Positions 53,094 to 64,000 are shown, numbered from the stretch's first letter. The stretch: 64,000 bases of DNA from Methanosarcina sp. MTP4 (GCF_000970045.1 NZ_CP009505.1:3434808-3498807), one strand, 5' to 3'. The notes: generated from the letters alone by a model not told the origin. A program made the numbers and translations.

Positions 53094-54284
53094 TTACAAC
53101 GCTACAGGCGAGACAGGCATTCCAGATACGTATTCCATAAACCCGTCCGCAGTGTATGAAACCGGATCTCCGCCTATCGTCCCGTTGACCTGGTAGTTTC
53201 CGATCATTCCCCAGAGAACCCGGAATTTGACATTCCCGCTTTCATCGACTATTACTATCGGGACAAGTACGGACTGCTCCGTGTTGAACCCGATTTCGAG
53301 ATTATTGGCATCAGGAGACAAGGCATTTGATGCGCTTATGCTCGTATCCACGGGAAGAGGGAAGGAAGCTATGGGCAGGCCAATACCCTGGTCCGGTATC
53401 GGGAAGGTTTCATTGAAGGATGTCAGGTTATGCTCTATTTTCAGTTCATCCCCGCTGAAACTGGCAGTTATGTTTTCTCCCTTCCAGACACTCAGGAGAG
53501 AGAATGCAGATTGCGTATGGGAAGCGTTGGTAATGTTTCCGAAACTGAGGGAATATTCCCCTACCTCACTTTCATTCGAGCTGGAATTTAGCTGGATGAC
53601 CTGACCCCTTTCCCAGCCAAAGTCCGAATCCCAGGACCAGTAGCCCCAGTTGTGGTCATGGTATCCTCTCCTCTGATCAAAGGCGTATGTCTGCCCGTCA
53701 ACAGTAAGTGTCCCGTTAACCGTCATTTTCGCGGAAGTTATCAGCCCGTTGGTTTCCGTTCCCGGCACAGGCACCCCTGATATATTGTATGCAGGACTGG
53801 GCTCCACCTCAGGTACGAAAAGCGCGTCAAAAACCTTCGTCCCGTCATCCGACTCAACATACACGACGTATCCCTGATCCGTTAACGTCACCGAACTGTT
53901 AGAGATCGTAACGTTCGGGGATTCGGAAGAATACTCCACCACTCCCGGAACGAGAGGATAAACTCCATAAAACAAGCCAGTAGTGACATTAGTGGCGTTA
54001 GTGGCATTAGCCGAATACCCAAGCATGACTTCGGAAGCATTGAGAGCACCGTTCAATTTAAAAGTGCACGTTACTGAGAGGTTCTGTTCCTCATCGATGA
54101 CGTTGAAATAGTGCCATTCGTTGTAAAGGTTTACAGGATCCCCCTCCCCGGGCGGATGGAATGCATCTACCACAGAGAGTTCTTCAATCAATGAACTATT
54201 CAGGGCTCCAAGACCCACATTCGAAACAAACAGAAGCAAAAAAATTCCAGTAAGTATCGGTTTCAATATTTCTTTAGTTTTCAC
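53094..54284 (-). CDS. Exported AttH/CrtC-like (hydroxyneurosporene synthase/tocopherol cyclase-like) protein
   Basis: 396-aa protein with a signal peptide (core LTGIFLLLFVSNVGLGA). The tandem lipocalin-like fold of AttH/CrtC shows as FHPPGEGDPVNLYNEWHYF near the N-terminus and the family signature RGYHDHNWGYWSWDSDFGW in the middle. It has many N-glycosylation sites (NAT, NVT, NSS). CrtC relatives add water to carotenoids, but an exported archaeal form may just bind lipids or isoprenoids. GTG start at 54284 behind GTGGGGGTT. No anchor is visible. Confidence 0.75.
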   Translation of the reverse strand: MKTKEILKPILTGIFLLLFVSNVGLGALNSSLIEELSVVDAFHPPGEGDPVNLYNEWHYFNVIDEEQNLSVTCTFKLNGALNASEVMLGYSANATNATNVTTGLFYGVYPLVPGVVEYSSESPNVTISNSSVTLTDQGYVVYVESDDGTKVFDALFVPEVEPSPAYNISGVPVPGTETNGLITSAKMTVNGTLTVDGQTYAFDQRRGYHDHNWGYWSWDSDFGWERGQVIQLNSSSNESEVGEYSLSFGNITNASHTQSAFSLLSVWKGENITASFSGDELKIEHNLTSFNETFPIPDQGIGLPIASFPLPVDTSISASNALSPDANNLEIGFNTEQSVLVPIVIVDESGNVKFRVLWGMIGNYQVNGTIGGDPVSYTADGFMEYVSGMPVSPVAL

Positions 54285-54699: not shown

Positions 54700-54867
54700 T
54701 CATTCCGCTTCAAGGCAGACCTGAATAGCTTCCTCTACACGCTCCATAGCCTGTTCCAGGGTTTTTCCCTGCGTGTAGCAACCGGAAATGTCCGGCACTG
54801 TCGCTATGTACATCCCGCCTTTATCCTGCTCAACCAGGACTGTGAAACCTGATTTTTTGAATTTCAT
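54700..54867 (-). CDS. Small HicB-like antitoxin, orphan
   Basis: 55-aa protein, MKFKKSGFTVLVEQDKGG, then YIATVPDISGCYTQGKTLEQ and the helix AMERVEEAIQVCLEAE. This is the minimal HicB-like fold (partial RNase H) that normally pairs with a HicA mRNA interferase. HicA would be expected directly next to it, but neither flank encodes one. Start: ATG at 54867; an in-frame extension to 54990 runs antisense to the HTH remnant and is not supported. It may be a solitary regulator or a leftover. Confidence 0.75.
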   Translation of the reverse strand: MKFKKSGFTVLVEQDKGGMYIATVPDISGCYTQGKTLEQAMERVEEAIQVCLEAE

Positions 54868-54901
54868 TTTGAACCGTTTACATATTGATCCGGGGGTATT
54901 T

Positions 54902-55126
54902 AAGGAAAATGCACCTGTAAATGCACCTGTAAAATTGACAACTTCAGAAGAAGAAATTCTCGGACTGATCAAAAACGACATCAATATCACTTATGATACT
55001 ATCGCAGAATCCCTTGGAAAAAACCGAACAACAATAATGAGAAATATCAAAAAACTGAAAGACGGGGACATCCTTACAAGAATCGGATCAGACAAAACAG
55101 GACACTGGGTAGTGACCAGAAAATAA
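54902..55126 (+). pseudogene. 3' remnant of an AlbA_2/HTH protein gene
   Basis: About 74 codons ending at TAA 55124-55126: a linker (NAPVNAPVKLT) and a winged helix (EEEILGLIKNDINITYDTIA, RTTIMRNIKKLKDGDILTRI) closing GSDKTGHWVVTRK. This matches the C-terminus of AlbA_2 (Schlafen-like) HTH proteins such as the gene at 55514, which ends GPDKGGHWEIT. The catalytic N-terminal part is missing. A TTG start in the linker could still give a small HTH protein. The 165-bp repeat follows its stop codon, as it does after the intact gene. Confidence 0.65.
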
Positions 55127-55200
55127 GATACGAATAAAGTATGAGAAACTGGGGAAATCGGCTGGTTGCGCCGCGGTTTAGAAGTTAATATAGTTTCCAA

Positions 55201-55345
55201 AATAACTGTTTTATTATATATTCCAGCCAGCCAACCGCCCACCCTCAAATCAGCAAATCGAAAAACGGGACGCTAATATTCATTTCAACCTTTCGAAGTA
55301 CGCAGCAGTAAACATTAATTTTCATCAGAACTTTAGAAGAGATGC
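55201..55345 (+). repeat. 165-bp structured repeat, copy a (single, 3' part diverged)
   Basis: Begins AATAACTGTTTTATTATAT and continues with CCAGCCAACCGCCCACC, CAAATCAGC, GAAAAACGGGACGCTAA and CAACCTTTCG. The last third is diverged and lacks the ACGGAAGGATGGA stem. The 40 bases before it (CCGCGGTTTAGAAG...) resemble those before copy b, so each follows an AlbA_2-type 3' end by a related leader. Confidence 0.8.
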
Positions 55346-55513
55346 CAGTCTGAAATTCAAATTACAAGAAATAAGAAGGCGTTCCAAAAACCAGAAAAAC
55401 ATTAGCTGAAGCGAGATCAAAAAAACAAAGGGCAGAAATTTAAGTACTCGAAGAACTCTTATGAAAACTGGAAAGCAGGAAAAAGAATTAAGCGAATGTT
55501 GTAGGCCACCCAT

Positions 55514-56986
55514 ATGAATCAGAAAGAGCTGTTGGATAAACTGGAAGAACTGGAGTGGGAAGACTTTGAGGTAAAGGAAGCAAGAACCTCCATTCCAAAA
55601 AGCAGCTTTGAGACGGTCAGCGCCTTTTCCAACACAAATGGCGGCTGGCTGGTTTTCGGGATAAAAGAATACAGAAGAGGGTATAATATTACTGGCGTAG
55701 AAGACGCCGAAAAAATCGAACAGGATTTTACAACTGCTCTAAGAGGAGAGAAATTCAACCAGAAAATAATAGCCACCTGTAAAAAATACCTGATAGAAGG
55801 AAAAAACGTGCTTGCCTTCTATATCCAGACTTCCGAAAAAAGACCTGTTTACTTCAACTCCAGGAAAAACACCTTCATAAGAACCGGAAGTGGGGACCAG
55901 CGAGCCACGGACGCGGAAATCGATGCAATGTACAGGGACTCCGCTTTTGGGACAAAAGACAAGGAACTTACGGACTTCACAATTGAAGATCTCAACCCGA
56001 AGACAATTGAAGATTACAAAATCTACCTCGGGAACGTAAATCCGGAACACAGGTACAACAAGCTTTCAGCTGAAGCTCTTCTTGAGAAACTGCAGGCCAT
56101 AGTTGACGGGAAAGTTACCATTGGAGGTCTCCTTGTTTTCGGCACCGAAGACAACATCAACCGCCTGCTTACCGATTTCAGGATCGACTACCTGGAAATC
56201 CCTGGCACCTCATATTCAGATGCCCCAACCCGCTACAGCTACCGACTCTCTGAAGAAGAAAACCTCTTCCGCTTCTATTTCAGCATATTCGAGCGCCTGA
56301 TAAAGAAAATAGACCTGCCCTTTACCCTCCGGGCAGATGGCTTTGCAACCGACAGACAGCCCCAGCTAACAGCAATCCGGGAAGCCCTGGTAAACCTCCT
56401 TATGCACTCCGACTACTTCAGCCCCATGAAACCCAGAATCCGGGTCTTCCTTGACCGGATCGAGTTCATGAACCCCGGCGCACTCCCAAAAGACCTGGAC
56501 TCAATCATGAAAGAAGACTTCACAATGCCCAGGAACCCGACAGTTGCGAGGATCTTCCGGGTAATCCGGCTCTCGGAAAATGCAGGTTCAGGATTCGATA
56601 AGATGTTCGGAGGATGGAAGTCCTATTATGAAGTGGAACCGAAAGTTTCAGGAGAACTTGATTACTACAAGATAGTTTTCCCGTTATCGAAAGAAGAAAC
56701 TGTAAAGGAAAGCACCCGAAAGGTTCAGGAAGAACTTAAAACCGGGGAGAAAATAATCCTCCTGATTAAAGAAGAACCTTCCATAACTACAAAAGAACTG
56801 GCAGGTGAACTGGGAGTTACAGTAAAAGGCATTGAATGGCAGCTTAAAAGCCTGAAAGAAAAAGACATCCTTAGAAGGGTAGGCCCCGATAAGGGCGGAC
56901 ATTGGGAAATAACTGAAAATTGGACAGGGGAGAAAACTAGGGAGAAAACTAGGGAGAAAACTAGGGAGAAAACTAGGGAGAACTAA
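55514..56986 (+). CDS. AlbA_2/Schlafen-like ATP-binding protein with C-terminal winged helix
   Basis: 490 aa. AlbA_2 domain at about residues 17-130 (FEVKEARTSIPKSSFETV, then SNTNGGWLVFGI), a long middle region related to RecG-like HTH proteins (NPEHRYNKLSAEALLEKL, AIREALVNLLMHSDY, FMNPGALPKDLDSI), and a C-terminal winged helix (about 415-465). The last 20 residues are a TREK repeat (four 12-bp copies of GGGAGAAAACTA), a likely variable tail. Such proteins act as regulators or in phage defence; here the role is unknown. No Shine-Dalgarno is visible before the ATG. It lies between repeat copies a and b, the first intact gene of the cassette-like row. Confidence 0.85.
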   Translation: MNQKELLDKLEELEWEDFEVKEARTSIPKSSFETVSAFSNTNGGWLVFGIKEYRRGYNITGVEDAEKIEQDFTTALRGEKFNQKIIATCKKYLIEGKNVLAFYIQTSEKRPVYFNSRKNTFIRTGSGDQRATDAEIDAMYRDSAFGTKDKELTDFTIEDLNPKTIEDYKIYLGNVNPEHRYNKLSAEALLEKLQAIVDGKVTIGGLLVFGTEDNINRLLTDFRIDYLEIPGTSYSDAPTRYSYRLSEEENLFRFYFSIFERLIKKIDLPFTLRADGFATDRQPQLTAIREALVNLLMHSDYFSPMKPRIRVFLDRIEFMNPGALPKDLDSIMKEDFTMPRNPTVARIFRVIRLSENAGSGFDKMFGGWKSYYEVEPKVSGELDYYKIVFPLSKEETVKESTRKVQEELKTGEKIILLIKEEPSITTKELAGELGVTVKGIEWQLKSLKEKDILRRVGPDKGGHWEITENWTGEKTREKTREKTREKTREN

Positions 56987-57091
56987 AAAATCACCGGAAA
57001 CCCGGATTATTTTTCAGTCTCAAACCTTCTCCACCCATCCCCTCAAATCCTCAGATTTCACCGCTGTTTTGAAGTTTATTTAGTTATCCAA

Positions 57092-57318
57092 AATAACTGT
57101 TTTATTATATTTTTCAGCCAGCCAACCACCCACCATCAAATCGGCAGGTCGAAAACTGGAACGCTAAAATCCCTATCAACCTTTCGGAAGCTTAACGCAG
57201 CAAAAATCCATTTTTCCGTAGAACAATTGAAGGCTGGAACTAATCCGAGCAACCGGAATAACTGTTTTATTATATTTTTCCGCCAGCCAACCACCCACCC
57301 ACAAATCAGCCAAATTCT
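57092..57318 (+). repeat. 165-bp structured repeat, copies b and c (dimer, c truncated)
   Basis: Copy b runs 57092-57256; c begins at 57257, exactly 165 bases later, and stops after CAAATCAGCC at about 57311. In b a long imperfect stem joins TCCATTTTTCCGT and (degenerate) its complement; the join CCGAGCAACCGGAATAACTG leads straight into c. Confidence 0.9.
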
Positions 57319-57415
57319 ATCAAAGCCGAATATCTCCCAACATTAAAATAAATTATATAAGGAGAAAGAAAGTTAAGGTAAGTAAGTACTCTGAAAAGAG
57401 AAGATATTATAGGGA

Positions 57416-57904
57416 GTGCATAGTACGTCAGAAGAACCAGGGCTGCTTGCAAAGATCGCATCTGTCACCATAGTTCCAATCATTATTTGTGCAATCTTTA
57501 TTGCTCTGGATAACGGGGAGTGCATTTTTGCAGAGTACATATCAAACGAATCGGAGTTTCAAGTAAATCTTAGTAAAAATACTAAATATGAACTCTGGGT
57601 TGTTGACCTGATAGGCCCCGAAAAAATCAACATATCAGTGAGAAAAGATTCCTACGTTGCATATGAAGACACGTTCATGCTAATGCATCCTGAAGGAGAT
57701 TATCTTCCCTATCATCCGGATTTCACAGTAAAAGAAAACGGAACTTACAAAGTACATATCAAACCACAGGACCCAGGTACTGTCAAGATAGGAATCCTGG
57801 AATATCCATCAAAAAACGGCGGAATCATAAAAGAGAAAAGTGAGCAAAAAAAAGAAGTAAAACTGCTGACACCCTCAAAACTTAAGGAAGAATTAGGGAT
57901 CTAA
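57416..57904 (+). CDS. Exported or membrane-anchored beta-domain protein, unknown
   Basis: 162 aa. One N-terminal membrane helix (about residues 12-32, ASVTIVPIIICAIFIAL), then a beta sandwich (about 45-130: EFQVNLSKNTKYELWVVDL, DFTVKENGTYKVHIKP), and a charged Lys/Glu tail. The domain resembles pre-peptidase C-terminal-like beta sandwiches, but I cannot assign a family. Start GTG at 57416 lies within AGGGAGTG, an awkward spot. It sits between repeat dimers b/c and d/e. Confidence 0.65.
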   Translation: MHSTSEEPGLLAKIASVTIVPIIICAIFIALDNGECIFAEYISNESEFQVNLSKNTKYELWVVDLIGPEKINISVRKDSYVAYEDTFMLMHPEGDYLPYHPDFTVKENGTYKVHIKPQDPGTVKIGILEYPSKNGGIIKEKSEQKKEVKLLTPSKLKEELGI

Positions 57905-57922
57905 TCTTATCCGAGCAACCGA

Positions 57923-58235
57923 AATAACTGTTTTATTATATTTTCCGCCAGCCAACCGCCCACCATCAAATCAGCACGTCGAGAAACGGGACGCTAAAAA
58001 TCCACTCAACCTTTCGAAAGGATGCAGCAGTTGACACCTATTTTCCATCAGAACAACGGAAGGACGGAACTTACCCGAACAACCGAAATAACTGTTTTAT
58101 TATATTTTTCCGCCAGCCAACCGCCCACCATCAAATCGGCAAGTCGAAAAACGGGACCTTAAAATCACCTTCAACCATTCGAAAGGATGCAGCAGTGGAC
58201 ATCCATTTTTCAGCAGAATAACGGAATGACGGATA
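57923..58235 (+). repeat. 165-bp structured repeat, copies d and e (dimer)
   Basis: AATAACTG starts at 57923 and 58087, 164 bases apart. Both copies include CCTTTCGAAAGG or a near form (palindrome) and GCAGCAGT. The hairpin region is TCCATTTTTCAGCAGAATAACGGAATGACGG in e (weaker) and carries AACAACGGAAGGACGGAAC in d. The dimer begins 18 bases after the upstream gene's stop codon. Confidence 0.9.
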
Positions 58236-58664
58236 GAATTAGAAAAATAGAGCCGGGTAAGAACAATTCCTCCATCAGCTATTCACTAAAACCTTTTTTC
58301 GATTTGCATTCCAGGTACCGGCGCTCTCACCGGTCGGCGAAGACGACCGGCTTTTCCAGAAAGTAAATTAAAATGAATAAAAATAATGAGTAAGTTCCCA
58401 AAAGTATGTTTATAATTAAAAAACAGAATATCGACATAAAATGAGTTGAATGAAAAGAAAAGCTAATAACAGAAGCTTATTTTTCAATACCTTTTTTCAG
58501 AAATTAAGGAAAAGGCCGTTTGCTCACGCAAACGGTGAGGGCCCTAGTTATCGAAATAAAGAAAGAAATTCCCAAAATTGGAATCAGTAGTAATCTCCGT
58601 AACAAAAACCAGGGCCATCTCAAGTAATATGCCAGGGGTTCTACATTTCCAGTTTTAATTGGAA
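58236..58664. other. Spacer with two hairpins inside the repeat region
   Basis: No gene seen between copies e and f. It holds a GC-rich element at about 58315-58360 (ACCGGCGCTCTCACCGGTCG, ending GACCGGCTTTTCCAGAAAG) and the hairpin CCGTTTGC-TCAC-GCAAACGG at 58516-58535. A gene may have been lost from this position. Confidence 0.5.
58516..58535. other. Perfect 8-bp hairpin with TCAC loop
   Basis: CCGTTTGCTCACGCAAACGG. Outer GGCC/GGGCC bases could extend the stem imperfectly. No T-run follows, so it is not an obvious terminator. Confidence 0.7.
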
Positions 58665-58920
58665 CAACGGAAAGCTGGAACTTAGCCGAGCAACCGAAAT
58701 AACTGTTTTATTATATTTTCCGCCAGCCAACCGCCCACCCTCAAATCAGCAGGTCGAAAAACGGGACGCTAAAAATCCATTTCAACCTTTCGAAAGAATG
58801 CAGCAGTGGGAATCCATTTTTCCGTAGAACAACGGAAGGATGGAACTTGCCCGAGCAATCGAAATAACTGTTTTATTATATTTTTCCGCCAGCCAACCGC
58901 CCACCCTCAAATCAGCAAAA
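58665..58920 (+). repeat. 165-bp structured repeat, partial tail plus copies f and g (dimer, g truncated)
   Basis: A repeat tail (AACAACGGAAAGCTGGAACT) leads into copy f at 58698; g starts at 58863, 165 bases later, and is cut after CAAATCAGCA, the same place as copy c. Copy f shows the best hairpin: TCCATTTTTCCGT pairs with ACGGAAGGATGGA around AGAACA. Confidence 0.92.
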
Positions 58921-59084
58921 AGTTATCAAAAAATTAATACCATTAAATAATCTTACTTCATCTTAGAAAAACTGAAAGTTGAAAAGAAAAACTCAATTTG
59001 ATAAAAATAGATAATTATTTAACCACCTTTTTAAAAATATGGTGAACTGGACGGTACTTAGAATATCAAGGAGAGAAACTGAAT

Positions 59085-59333
59085 ATGATTGGCTCTGCTT
59101 ATGAAATCGTAACAAATACCATAAAAAATGGCTTACAATCATCGAAAAATAAAGATGAGATAAGGGAATGTAAGGAGAAAATAGAACACTTAGAAAAGAG
59201 CCACACTATTGAAGAAATAAAAGACTGCAAAGAAAAAATAAGAAAACTAGAAATGGAAGTTGCTGGTTTGAACGCATTCCAAAGAATAGTAGAAGGCTCA
59301 CTGGAAATCAACATAAGAGGGGGAAACAAATAA
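59085..59333 (+). CDS. Small coiled-coil protein, first of an overlapping pair
   Basis: 82-aa, strongly charged helical protein. Two related segments, DEIRECKEKIEHLEKS and EEIKDCKEKIRKLEME, form a probable coiled-coil hairpin with a Cys in each. AAGGAG lies about 10 bases before the ATG. Its stop codon overlaps the next start by one base (TAATG), so the two are translated together. Family not recognised. Lies between repeat dimers f/g and h/i. Confidence 0.7.
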   Translation: MIGSAYEIVTNTIKNGLQSSKNKDEIRECKEKIEHLEKSHTIEEIKDCKEKIRKLEMEVAGLNAFQRIVEGSLEINIRGGNK

Positions 59334-59623
59334 TGGAGTTATCACCGGAAAAACGCAATGAGATATACAGACTCAGAGATAAAATTGCCAACAATCAAGC
59401 AACTAGCGCCGAAATGAAGAGGTACCTTAATTTAATTTTAGAATCCAGTGACTACAACCGAAACGTTGTGGAAAAATACGTTAGAGAAATTGGTTATGAC
59501 TCTATAGAGGATTACGAGGATCATTTGGACGAAAAGAACAGCGACGAATTTGTTGGTGGATTGTTACTAATTGGTGGAGCTGTTCTTGTTGGGTACCTTA
59601 TCAACAAATTATCAAATAAATGA
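59333..59623 (+). CDS. Small protein with C-terminal membrane helix, second of an overlapping pair
   Basis: 96 aa. The N-terminal 70 residues are helical and charged (MELSPEKRNEIYRLRDKIA, SAEMKRYLNLILESSDYN), and a Gly-rich membrane helix closes the protein (FVGGLLLIGGAVLVGYLI). One-base overlap with the coiled-coil gene implies a fixed stoichiometry. A small coiled-coil/membrane pair in a cassette resembles toxin-antitoxin or immunity modules in layout, but I see no sequence evidence for either. Confidence 0.7.
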   Translation: MELSPEKRNEIYRLRDKIANNQATSAEMKRYLNLILESSDYNRNVVEKYVREIGYDSIEDYEDHLDEKNSDEFVGGLLLIGGAVLVGYLINKLSNK

Positions 59624-59671
59624 AGTCCTGCTTTTTTGGCGAAGTGCCGGCTTAATGTCGATGTGATGAAA

Positions 59672-59970
59672 TATAACGGTTTTATTATATTTATCTGCTA
59701 GCCAACCGCCCACCATCAAATCAGCAAGTAGAAAAAGGGGACGCTAAAAATCCATTTAACCTTTCGAAAGCTCAATGCAGAAAAAGATCCATTTTTCCGT
59801 AGAACAACTGAAGGATGGAACTTAGCCGAGCAACCGAAATAACTGTTTTATTATATTTTTCCTCCAGCCAACCGCCCACCCTAAAATCGTCAGGTCGAGA
59901 ACTGGGACGCTAAAAATCCACTCAGCCTTTCGAAAGGATGCAGAAGTGGATACCCATTTTTCAGTAACTT
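59672..59970 (+). repeat. 165-bp structured repeat, copies h and i (dimer)
   Basis: Copy h starts (degenerate, TATAACGG) at 59672 and i at 59838, 166 bases apart. Copy h contains TCCATTTTTCCGTAGAAC and AGGATGGAAC; i contains CCTTTCGAAAGG and ends at CCCATTTTTCAGTAAC. The dimer begins about 50 bases after the small-pair stop codon. Confidence 0.9.
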
Positions 59971-60123: not shown

Positions 60124-60915
60124 ATGGTCAGTAATGAACTTCAATTAATCATATGGCTTGAAGAATTACTACAAAACAATCAGAAATTTTTTTATTATCT
60201 ATCGATACTTTCACCATATGGTTTCATTTATTGGCTATACCCAGAAGAATTTTCGTTTTATAACTTTCTTTTCTCATTTGTGTTATTTACACTCCTAATC
60301 CATTTCATTTACGATAGGTATCTAGATGAAAAATTAAAGATTATAATAAAGATAAGGGATCGTATAGGATTAGAATTTGTAAAGGACAAAAGCACACTTT
60401 TAGAAATACAAAATGAGATGGAAATTTCACAAAAAAAGTATGAGCTAAAATCAAAGAATTTCAATGAAACAGATGTATTAAATCAAAAAGTGAAAAACCG
60501 AATTACCGTTTCATACAACAGAAAAAATGAAAGAATTGAAACTCTTATTAATGAGATGAAGAAACTTGAAGAAAAAATCATCAAACAAAAAGAAAATAAA
60601 AATCTACATGAATGTTTAAAAAATTATCAAGAACTTGATTTATTTATTATTTTTACTGCTTCATGTTTATTTATATTAATGTTTTTCCTCAAAAATGAGA
60701 TAGCTCAGTCTTACCTTAAGATAATCTTTTTCTTGTTTTTTATCATACTTTTATCAATAGATATAATTCACAGAAATGTTAAGTATATTAAACTGTGGTT
60801 TAAGTATTATATATTCAAAAAAATTTGTTTATTTGCAATAAAATTTATTAAATTCCAAAATGAAAGATATGAAAAACATGACACATATTCAAGCAACATT
60901 TTGCGAAAACAATAA
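60124..60915 (+). CDS. Four-helix membrane protein with central coiled coil, unknown
   Basis: 263 aa. Two membrane helices near the N-terminus (about residues 22-38 and 44-63), a cytoplasmic coiled coil (about 70-160, rich in Lys/Glu/Asn), two more helices (about 172-190 and 197-214) and a basic tail. Composition is much more AT-rich than the core genes, a sign of recent transfer. Shine-Dalgarno absent; AT-rich promoter-like sequence lies just upstream, so the mRNA may be leaderless. No family recognised. The topology resembles membrane effectors of some defence systems, but this is only an analogy. Confidence 0.7.
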   Translation: MVSNELQLIIWLEELLQNNQKFFYYLSILSPYGFIYWLYPEEFSFYNFLFSFVLFTLLIHFIYDRYLDEKLKIIIKIRDRIGLEFVKDKSTLLEIQNEMEISQKKYELKSKNFNETDVLNQKVKNRITVSYNRKNERIETLINEMKKLEEKIIKQKENKNLHECLKNYQELDLFIIFTASCLFILMFFLKNEIAQSYLKIIFFLFFIILLSIDIIHRNVKYIKLWFKYYIFKKICLFAIKFIKFQNERYEKHDTYSSNILRKQ

Positions 60916-61361
60916 AATATAAGAAACTATCTATAATTAATTACTGACCGAAATTATAGTCTTGAACGCAACTATTTACACTTCATTTCTCATAACGAAC
61001 TAAAAACACAATGTTTCGGACTAAAAAATGGGTCAGTCCAATCTCAAGTGTAATTCTTTGCGTAAATGACTATAGTCTAGTTTTTTGACATATTTTTCTT
61101 TTTCACCAGAACTTCTCCATTTTCACATACTGCCTCTCACCCTTCAGAATATCCCTTAAAAATACTTCTTCATCCACCATTACCTTTTAACCATCCTTGA
61201 TATCATTTCATATCCAACCTACTCGGTCTTTCAAACTCCGAAAAAAAGTACTGAATAATCAAGAAGTTTCCAGCAAAAAATGAGAGTATGGGGGTCCAGG
61301 AACTGATGAAAAGAAAGTTAAATAAGAAAATTTTAAATATGTGACAAGAAATCTTATCTGT
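60916..61361. other. Intergenic region containing a displaced helicase 3' end
   Basis: About 445 AT-rich bases. At 61103-61178 lies a diverged copy of the last 24 codons and stop of the helicase gene. Before the ATPase gene, TTTTAAATATG (about 61331-61341) is TATA-like. No complete gene seen. Confidence 0.7.
61103..61178. repeat. 76-bp direct repeat, left copy (possible attachment-site remnant)
   Basis: Aligns without gaps to 62924-62999 with about 10 mismatches. On the minus strand it still reads VDEEVFLRDILKGERQYVK and MEKFW-stop, matching the helicase C-terminus ([24 protein letters not shown]). Upstream of it the frame is broken. Confidence 0.85.
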
Positions 61362-62813
61362 ATGAAATTTAAAGATATTGAATTTGGGAGAATTGCCGCA
61401 GAGTATGAATTAACTTATTCTCCTAAACTCATTATCGACGGTTTTTTAGATGCATATGGATATATTGACTCCATAATCAATAGTGAAAAATTTTTAATTC
61501 TGGGTCCAAAGGGTTCTGGCAAATCAGCAATTGGATCCAAACTGGAAGTAATCGCACAGGAAGAAGGCGATATTTGTACCAAAAGTTATTATCTTGACAA
61601 CTTTCCATATAATCGATTTTCAGAAGTAATTCCGTGCAGAGAGGCACCTGAAACAAAATATCCAGACAATTGGGAATTCATTTTGATGGTTGCGTCTCTA
61701 AATTCTTTCATCGAAGATAAAGGATTTCGCTATCCAAACACAAAAAAAGCAAAAACTGTTTTAAAAGCACTTTTTGATCTCGGATTGTTATCGGTAAAAG
61801 AAGATCTATCCTTAGAGAACATTGTAAAAACTACTACAGACAAAAACTTTAAAATTGGACTGAGCAAAGTTGGATATGAATCATCAAAAAAACAAGAAAA
61901 AATTACCAATGTAAAAAAATTATATAGCGCACTACAAGAAATTTTCTACTTAGTGGAATTACAATCTAAACATTTCATCATTATAGATGGACTAGATGAC
62001 GTTTTGACCCAGAGGGAGAAACAGTATAAGTCCCTTTCTGCACTTGTTGCAACTGCAGATAAGATAAATAAAAAGTTTTATCAAAAAGGTATTAAGGCAA
62101 AAATAATCACAATGTGTAGAACAGACCTTTTCAACAAGTTATCAGAACCAAATAAAAACAAAATTAAACAAAACTCTGGAATAGTACTTGATTGGCACCA
62201 AGATAAAATAGATTTGAAATCCACAAACTTAAGCAAACTGGTAAATTTACGTGCTAAAATATCACTGGGTGAGGAAATAGATGTCTTTGAAATGTATTTA
62301 CCTCCAGATATTTATCACGGGAATCAAAACAAAGAAATTGAACAAGTTCTTTTTGACTACACAAGGCATTTACCCCGAGATATAATTCAGCTATTCAACG
62401 AAATCCAAAAACATTCAGGAAACAACGAAAAACCCTCAAAATCCAATGTTAAATATGCATTGACAACTTATTCAAAAGATTATTTCGTTGGAGAAATAAA
62501 AGACCACTTGTGTGGATTTTTAAAAGACGAAGATATAGAAAAGACGATTCAACTCCTAGTAAAAGTAAAGAAAAATAAATTTGACATATCCCAATTAGAA
62601 GAAATTATAGAATCCGATGATAAATTCAAATCACTTAATTTAAATGACATTTTGAACTTTCTGTTCGACTCCAATGCAATAGGTAACATTGACAAAGAAA
62701 CTAACTTTGTGACATTCAAATATCGAAATCAATATGCGGAATTCAATCCAAACCAAAATATATTGGTACATTATGGTCTCAGAAAAGGATTGAATTTGAG
62801 TAATGCAACTTAA
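61362..62813 (+). CDS. P-loop ATPase, Sll1717-like
   Basis: 483 aa. Walker A GPKGSGKSA (residues 48-56), Walker B FIIIDGLDDVL (about 205-215) and a following arginine in MCRTDLF; the remainder is helical. It resembles stand-alone P-loop ATPases of the Sll1717 type, often found in accessory or defence loci, but its partner is unknown. AT-rich and rich in Lys/Asn/Ile, unlike the core genes. Start: ATG at 61362, about 27 bases after a TATA-like box; a GTG at 61341 is also in frame. It is bracketed by the two 76-bp repeats. Confidence 0.8.
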   Translation: MKFKDIEFGRIAAEYELTYSPKLIIDGFLDAYGYIDSIINSEKFLILGPKGSGKSAIGSKLEVIAQEEGDICTKSYYLDNFPYNRFSEVIPCREAPETKYPDNWEFILMVASLNSFIEDKGFRYPNTKKAKTVLKALFDLGLLSVKEDLSLENIVKTTTDKNFKIGLSKVGYESSKKQEKITNVKKLYSALQEIFYLVELQSKHFIIIDGLDDVLTQREKQYKSLSALVATADKINKKFYQKGIKAKIITMCRTDLFNKLSEPNKNKIKQNSGIVLDWHQDKIDLKSTNLSKLVNLRAKISLGEEIDVFEMYLPPDIYHGNQNKEIEQVLFDYTRHLPRDIIQLFNEIQKHSGNNEKPSKSNVKYALTTYSKDYFVGEIKDHLCGFLKDEDIEKTIQLLVKVKKNKFDISQLEEIIESDDKFKSLNLNDILNFLFDSNAIGNIDKETNFVTFKYRNQYAEFNPNQNILVHYGLRKGLNLSNAT

Positions 62814-62923: not shown

Positions 62924-62999
62924 TCACCAGAACTTCTTCGTCTTCACATACTGCCTCTCAGCCTTCAGGATATCCCTGTAAAACGCCTCTTCATCCACC
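62924..62999. repeat. 76-bp direct repeat, right copy (helicase 3' end)
   Basis: The last 24 codons and stop of the helicase gene. Together with 61103-61178 it brackets the P-loop ATPase gene (about 1.7 kb between copies). Confidence 0.85.
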
Positions 63000-64000
63000 C
63001 TCAACTTCGCAATAACCCTTGAAGCCGTCTCAGGCCCGACTCCCCTGCTCGCAAGTGCAATTACTGCCTTATTCCCCTGGGACATCACAAGGCTTGCGTT
63101 CCTGTAGACCCGCTGGACCCTCTTTTTCTCCTCGTTTGAGATGGGGCTGCCTTTGCCCTGTTTTCTCACCAGTTTGATCTCCTCTTCTTCCCAGGGCTTG
63201 AGGGCTGCAATAGACCTGGAATCGCAGACCGGGCAGACGATTTCTTCGGGGACGTTCTTGACCTGGCGGCGGGAGGTCCATTTCTTGCAGGTCGTACAGA
63301 AGAGGATCACCCGGTCGTTCATGATCCGTTCCTTTAAGGCAAGGACGATTGAGCGGTCCGCCTTTTCGGGGGCTACCAGGTCCTTTTTCATGGCAAAGCC
63401 CGCAGAGCCGATCGGGGTAGGGCCCGAGACCTCGACTGCGATTTCCCCGGAAGCAATCCTTTCCAGCACCTCCTTTGCCCGTTCCACGTCCAGCATATCA
63501 TGGAAAATCTCCCGGACCACCTCGTCGTACATGGAAGAGCCCTCGTAGATGTCCAGCAGCTTCTTCATGCTGATCCGGTCGTACTCTATGTCCTTTGAAA
63601 GGGCGCCGAACTTCCGGGCTACGTGGACCATCTTCCACTTCATCAGGGTCGTGTTTTTAAGCGTCATCTCGATGATTGGCTCCACATGCTCCGGACGGAT
63701 CGCAAGCAGCATGTCCCGGATCTGCACAGCCCCAACCCGCCTTGGAAGCGTAAGCCTGATCCGGTACGGGTCCACCTCCTGAGCCACACTGCTCCCGAAG
63801 CGTGCCGAAAGAAGCGAGGTCAAAACCCGTGCCAGCGTCCCGTTGGTATTGTGCCCGAAACAGGCGTTCAGGGTCACAGCCTCCCCCTCGTCCTCGATCA
63901 CGATCGTGTCCGCGTCCGGAAGCGGAAAGCCCCCTTCCACGTGTTCCCGGACCAGCCTGACCAGCTCAAGCACGGAACGCACGTCCACCGGGTACTTTTC
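62924..64000 (-). CDS. Lhr-type ATP-dependent helicase, C-terminal part (runs off the window)
   Basis: The frame is open to the window edge, so only the last 359 or so codons are seen. It matches the C-terminal region of archaeal Lhr-core/Lhr2 DEAD/DEAH helicases: a helical region ([38 protein letters not shown]), a four-cysteine zinc motif (CTTCKKW...CPVCDSR), and a helix-hairpin-helix-like end ([17 protein letters not shown]). The ATPase motor lies outside the window. GC-rich and codon-biased, unlike its AT-rich left neighbours; its 3' end appears to have served as an insertion target. Confidence 0.82.

Follow-up and report, generated by a model that had tools for sequence, protein, structure and literature searches.

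The DNA analysed here, hereafter called the window, is a stretch of 64,000 nucleotides (nt) from the genome of Methanosarcina sp. MTP4 (GCF_000970045.1, NZ_CP009505.1:3434808-3498807), and all positions are counted from its first nucleotide. At 55201-59970 it carries a row of directly repeated units lying between unrelated genes, for which a preliminary description had proposed an integron-like arrangement of exchangeable cassettes. The row adjoins the 3′ end of the helicase gene lhr, a place which across the Methanosarcinaceae is a hotspot of genes of the toxin-antitoxin and defence type. This slot has a fixed boundary on the lhr side, the C-terminal part of lhr (62924..63988, minus strand), and in this genus also a fixed distal boundary, the gene of a conserved exported protein (53094..54284, minus strand). 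The label “defence-type” rests mainly on Pfam domains, since the cargo of the window gave weak matches only in PADLOC.

The repeat row and its core element

The row is genuine and comprises nine units (a to i), all on the plus strand and paired with spacings of 165, 164, 165 and 166 nt. Unit a (55202..55345) holds an AT box, a C-rich core and most of the filler sequence. Units b (57093..57252), d (57924..58082), e (58088..58245), f (58699..58858) and h (59673..59833) are full, units c (57258..57310) and g (58864..58918) consist of the core only, and unit i (59839..59966) is truncated at its 3′ end. As noticed before, c and g are both cut at CAAATCAGC/CAAATCAGCA (also written CAAATCAGC(A)), c ending at CAAATCAGC before the cassette of an exported protein, and the AT box of d begins 20 nt past the stop codon of the same gene. 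The earlier count of nine copies is correct but too low, because a tenth copy, a 3′ fragment of the unit (model positions 119-164), lies directly before f (approximately 58647..58692, plus strand) and a slot-specific family of cores extends across the Methanosarcinaceae. The copies of the row are 66-89% identical to one reference copy, and in blastn comparisons between them E-values go down to 3e-51, far beyond chance. The unit has no match at E < 0.001 outside this row in the MTP4 genome (4.21 Mb, one contig), and a search with the 20-nt AT box allowing up to two mismatches gave 23 matches, compared with 0 for a reversed-letter control.

The genes between the units are all on the plus strand. 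They comprise a gene with SLFN_AlbA_2, HATPase_c_4 and winged-helix domains (55514..56986), the gene of an exported Ig-like protein (57416..57904) and a gene pair at 59085..59333 (82 amino acids, no Pfam or PADLOC match) and 59333..59623 (96 amino acids). Beyond the row follows a cassette gene for a 263-amino-acid protein with hydrophobic stretches and no Pfam match (60124..60915, plus strand). Homologs of the exported Ig-like protein occur in other slots of the family, two of them ending 47-85 nt before a core, and the sole other occurrence of the 96-amino-acid protein within the Methanosarcinaceae is in one genome from a different genus.

Conservation within the unit is uneven. In 21 units from several genomes the most conserved part is formed by the first 57-66 nt, ATAACTGTTTTATTATATTTTTCCGCCAGCCAACCGCCCACCCTCAAATCAGC, and the other ~100 nt are a looser filler. 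The core (~60-75 nt) consists of an AT box of 20 nt, ATAACTnTTTTATTATATTT, which is sharply bounded at ATAAC, and a C-rich box after it; its ATAAC end faces the gene of the cassette. At the first base of ATAAC the information per column jumps from ~0.5 to 1.6 bits in both repeat types, and the opposite edge of the core is ragged, with truncations near 43, 57-58 and 66 nt. Type 1 core copies are 80-90% identical to one another, and type 3 is a shorter related form which consists of the AT box, CCGCCCCAGCCCCCCTCAAATCCTTCGATT and GCGCCGC at its end. The MTP4 genome, in which the core has been expanded to tandem 165-bp units, also contains a type 3 remnant with the GCGCCGC tail upstream of unit a (55155..55201, plus strand; assigned by similarity to the related genome G096 and by inspection) and a second, type 3-like remnant before unit b (57045-57092). 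The values for the comparison with G096 are 79.6% and 84.7%.

The preliminary description had also seen a palindrome and an imperfect 13-bp stem in the units, and had considered a role in RNA processing. The palindrome is conserved as a sequence, but nothing shows it as an RNA structure. Likewise, the stem is good in the best copies, but does not reflect general pairing, as 71.6% of the cells pair in the 21 units and the mean of shuffled controls is 71.6% as well. Structured non-coding RNAs or RNA-processing sites would explain the stems that are locally good in single copies; on the other side, a covariation check found no excess of compensatory changes, RNAalifold predicted no consensus pair on the forward strand, and an Rfam search of the row and related loci gave no match relevant to the repeat. 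For these reasons the unit is not regarded as a structured RNA, and we consider this explanation highly improbable.

Distribution and orientation in the Methanosarcinaceae

In the three other genomes of the genus that were compared, this place carries the same repeats as in MTP4, but the genes enclosed by them are different. The same repeat type occupies the slot in G096 and G087 of the larger sister genus, and other Methanosarcinaceae genomes have type 3 in the same slot. The cargo between the conserved flanking genes is variable and includes HicAB, HepT/MNT, an Mrr-like nuclease, SIR2-nSTAND, a PLD-type nuclease, nSTAND proteins and many unknowns. Slot content differs in every genome, so that a gene order and repeat set common to all relatives, which would have spoken against exchangeable cassettes, does not exist.

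A profile of the core detected 74 cores in 23 lhr-slot sequences, and all 74 lie on the strand opposite to lhr. The genes of the slot run 76 versus 49 in the two orientations, and the earlier statement that the repeats separate same-strand genes thus holds for the MTP4 genome but not for its relatives. When lhr is drawn on the left, the core stands left of its gene, whatever the direction of that gene. For a genome-wide view, 39 cores were used to build a sequence model, with which 22 whole genomes were scanned. This gave 60 matches with E < 1e-6, of which 56 are located in the lhr slot and four outside (two in G079, one each in G081 and G097). This specificity is perhaps somewhat overstated, since slot copies supplied nearly all the cores of the model and scoring was limited to the 150 best candidates of each genome. 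Searches of plasmids, phages and viral contigs with the row or its core gave no match. In G079, three cores are found ~65 kb from lhr (C1:1299325-1300486) and the lhr slot itself is core-free, which may represent a relocated array.

The distribution bears on the idea that the repeats are miniature inverted-repeat transposable elements (MITEs) or other small mobile elements, inserted repeatedly by chance beside accessory genes. A related family, type 2, with the same AT box and a different C-rich part (GCCGGCGGACTGCTCCC...), is indeed scattered near other accessory loci. Types 1 and 3, however, are almost limited to one slot and keep one orientation throughout; inverted-repeat ends were not found in the units, and neither target-site duplications nor dispersed full-length copies have been seen so far. 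A MITE-like origin is therefore very unlikely in our view.

The type 2 repeats were found at L058, L059, L072-L074, L057, L076, L077 and L053, in neighbourhoods that by appearance contain restriction-type genes, AlbA_2 genes and others. Their filler holds a decayed coding fragment (...LSIDFYSRQPKELRDRNCYVIRTGKGNF...). Close to type 2 elements lies a direct repeat (RF01320) of the clustered regularly interspaced short palindromic repeat (CRISPR) type at L057:13978-14014, and an open reading frame (ORF) of 438 amino acids (L076:13813-15129), the start of which looks IscB/RRXRR-like by eye, has a type 2 element a few kb away.

Exchange of cassettes at the repeats

The gene on the ATAAC side of a core (encoding HicB, HepT/MNT or a zinc-ribbon protein) is found at a tight distance, and the gene on the opposite side varies. 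The start of hicB mostly lies 17-42 nt from the ATAAC edge, with left neighbours of at least six kinds, and that of MNT 95-127 nt from it when no further unit is placed between them. Stop codons are positioned in a similar way, mostly 22-37 nt from the edge for the zinc-ribbon gene and 23-24 nt for a RelE/ParE-like gene. Because the distance on the ATAAC side is tight while the other neighbour changes, modules of “core plus gene” appear to be exchanged at the repeat.

Shared cassettes recur in a different order. HicAB, MNT/HepT, a DUF3467 trio, the zinc-ribbon gene and the gene of the exported Ig-like protein are all found again with changed neighbours, which bears out the proposal that the repeats punctuate exchangeable cassettes. 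In G002, for example, MNT/HepT is followed by repeat units, and in G003 it adjoins HicAB across one core; the HicAB cassette together with both flanking cores is found again in G096. The breaks in homology between slots fall at the edges of the repeats. These reordered cassettes are the strongest evidence for exchange at the repeats, as judged from a comparison between species rather than from an observed event.

The tight distances can also be read in a regulatory way, with the cores acting as a terminator and an opposite-strand promoter or as a shared operator of a defence regulon, and exchange being a by-product of the common sequence. In many cases the AT box follows a stop codon by 16-50 nt, and hicB and MNT starts are found 17-142 nt from the edge. 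The reverse strand of the core reads GGAAAnATATAATAAAACAGTTAT / GGAAAnATATAATA, which by eye resembles a B recognition element (BRE) and TATA box. On the side of the supposed promoter, however, many units of the window lack a gene start, and the orientation of the core does not follow transcription, since the element is fixed while the genes vary (see above). A purely regulatory explanation thus seems unlikely to us.

Remnants of cassettes are also present in the window. Beside unit a, a HicB-like remnant (54700..54870, minus strand; ~82% to L048 and L050) overlaps, within 54700-55126, with an ORF on the plus strand (54788..55126), which has a winged-helix C-terminus resembling the end of the AlbA_2 gene, falls into the same protein cluster (F30) as that gene and is probably a truncated AlbA_2 copy. 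Intact hicB/hicA genes exist in the same slot of relatives. The stretch 58245-58645 is non-coding and composed of two parts, 58245-58387 being common to G096 and 58348-58645 common to G003, where the counterpart is joined straight to the distal flank. Of the six AlbA_2 genes over the cut-off in the MTP4 genome, three have an AT box within ~2 kb; an AlbA_2-linked element was dropped as the main explanation, as many other genes of the lhr slot carry the core.

Duplication of the lhr 3′ end

The final ~90 bp of lhr (62924-63013) are duplicated in the MTP4 genome at 61098-61187, and this displaced copy has the orientation of lhr (minus strand). A gene for a P-loop (AAA-like) ATPase (61341..62813, plus strand) is located between the two. 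Duplicated 3′ ends of lhr were likewise found in G075 (twice), G078, G086 and G097, and G100 and G104 contain additional copies; in G086 the insert between the lhr ends codes for TPR proteins. The duplications vary in length, which fits homologous recombination with incoming DNA bearing lhr, an alternative being an integrase acting in trans. None of the inserts examined between lhr copies encodes a recombinase or integrase.

These inserts, small and free of integrase genes, are among the observations that would suit cores serving as the sites of a trans-acting site-specific recombinase. The system would then be a true analogue of integrons, with a gene plus a site, a directional array and a fixed landing place. 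The orientation of all 74 cores, the sharp ATAAC edge, the cassette-like modules and the fixed slot agree with this. On the other hand, neither the slot proteins examined nor the surroundings of the row include a recombinase, the tyrosine recombinases of this genome are ~200 kb or more away, and the core is ragged at its other end. We regard a dedicated recombinase as an unlikely explanation, too.

Comparison with known systems

The comparison with integrons and with clusters of attC sites lacking integron integrases (CALINs), which may be without IntI, covered both the enzyme and its sites. None of 112 genomes of the family has an IntI (TIGR02249) over the cut-off, and a simple pattern test found no attC-type pairs of R″ (RYYYAAC) and R′ (GTTRRRY) in seven repeat regions. 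A single-strand fold with conserved structure, as in integron sites, was not found on the forward strand either. What the row has in common with integrons and CALINs, including the integrons reported from archaeal metagenome-assembled genomes (PMC9668308), is its architecture: exchangeable cassettes, sites of constant orientation and a fixed locus. It differs from them in having no recognised IntI, attC or attI, in the free orientation of its genes, and in a site composed of an AT box and a C-rich box that shows no covariation of a folded site and is almost limited to one chromosomal slot. That the row is simply an integron or CALIN of the usual kind, filled with archaeal cassettes, is extremely unlikely. 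The preliminary interpretation stands as far as the punctuation of exchangeable cassettes is concerned, and is not supported with respect to RNA processing and membership in the integrons.

As an accessory locus bounded by core genes, the lhr slot belongs to a known kind of hotspot. In the core defence hotspots of Pseudomonas aeruginosa (PMC10250203) and the defence islands of E. coli (PMC10121019), too, changing sets of defence and toxin-antitoxin genes are flanked by conserved genes; the lhr slot would be set apart from them by its oriented repeat family at the inner junctions. What is unusual here is the punctuation by an oriented element specific to the slot. Archaeal “dark-matter” islands (PMC4158269) are similar as fast-evolving accessory clusters with defence genes and integrated elements, and the passages of that work considered here mention neither such a repeat nor the lhr slot. 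The same source describes, in the part considered, archaeal integrative elements which enter the 3′ ends of genes, with tRNA genes as targets. The duplication of a target-gene 3′ end around inserted genes is alike at lhr, but the target is protein-coding, the examined inserts have no integrase and the duplication is of variable length. No description of the repeat itself was found in the literature searched.

Discussion

We read the row as the local form of the Methanosarcinaceae lhr hotspot, a cassette rack that was seeded at lhr and is shuffled by recombination between direct repeats. For this reading as a whole we estimate a probability of roughly 0.45, that is, somewhat below even. Several of its components are on firm ground: the anatomy of the element, its slot specificity and uniform orientation, the exchange of modules at repeat edges as seen in the comparison of species, and the repeated partial duplication of the lhr 3′ end. 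As to the mechanism, cassettes would come in through recombination, both at lhr and at the repeats; homologous recombination between directly repeated cores would then shuffle, duplicate or delete them. The tandem 165-bp units of this genus could serve as spare homology in this process. More tentatively, the core may act as a transcription terminator for genes with their stop at ATAAC, and may supply an opposite-strand, BRE/TATA-like promoter for genes with their start there.

Several points weigh against the cassette rack. Exchange is seen between species only, with one genome per species, and no event between strains of one species is among the observations. The core is short (~60 nt) and, at the identity found among type 1 copies, poor homology for exchange of the RecA/RadA type; an edge as sharp as that at ATAAC suits a functional or site-specific boundary better than homologous recombination. 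The units are not clearly grouped by genome in a tree of weak support, for which reason concerted evolution is not used as an argument, and recent homogenisation within the array is not visible. Finally, the role which the core may play as promoter or terminator was judged solely by inspecting motifs.

A further-reaching proposal, which we hold to be rather unlikely, is that the slot represents an undescribed archaeal platform for cassette capture, with lhr as the landing place and with a gene or operon plus an oriented AT-box/C-box site being exchanged by a putative recombination activity in the Methanosarcinaceae. If this were true, the platform would be a counterpart of bacterial integrons for archaeal toxin-antitoxin and defence genes, built from unrelated parts, and should the site be acted on by a dedicated enzyme, this would be a second integron-like system, unrelated to the first. 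In any case, the cassette junctions of an archaeal hotspot of toxin-antitoxin and defence-type genes are here found to carry a specific DNA element of fixed orientation, which makes the question of how such hotspots gain and swap genes testable.

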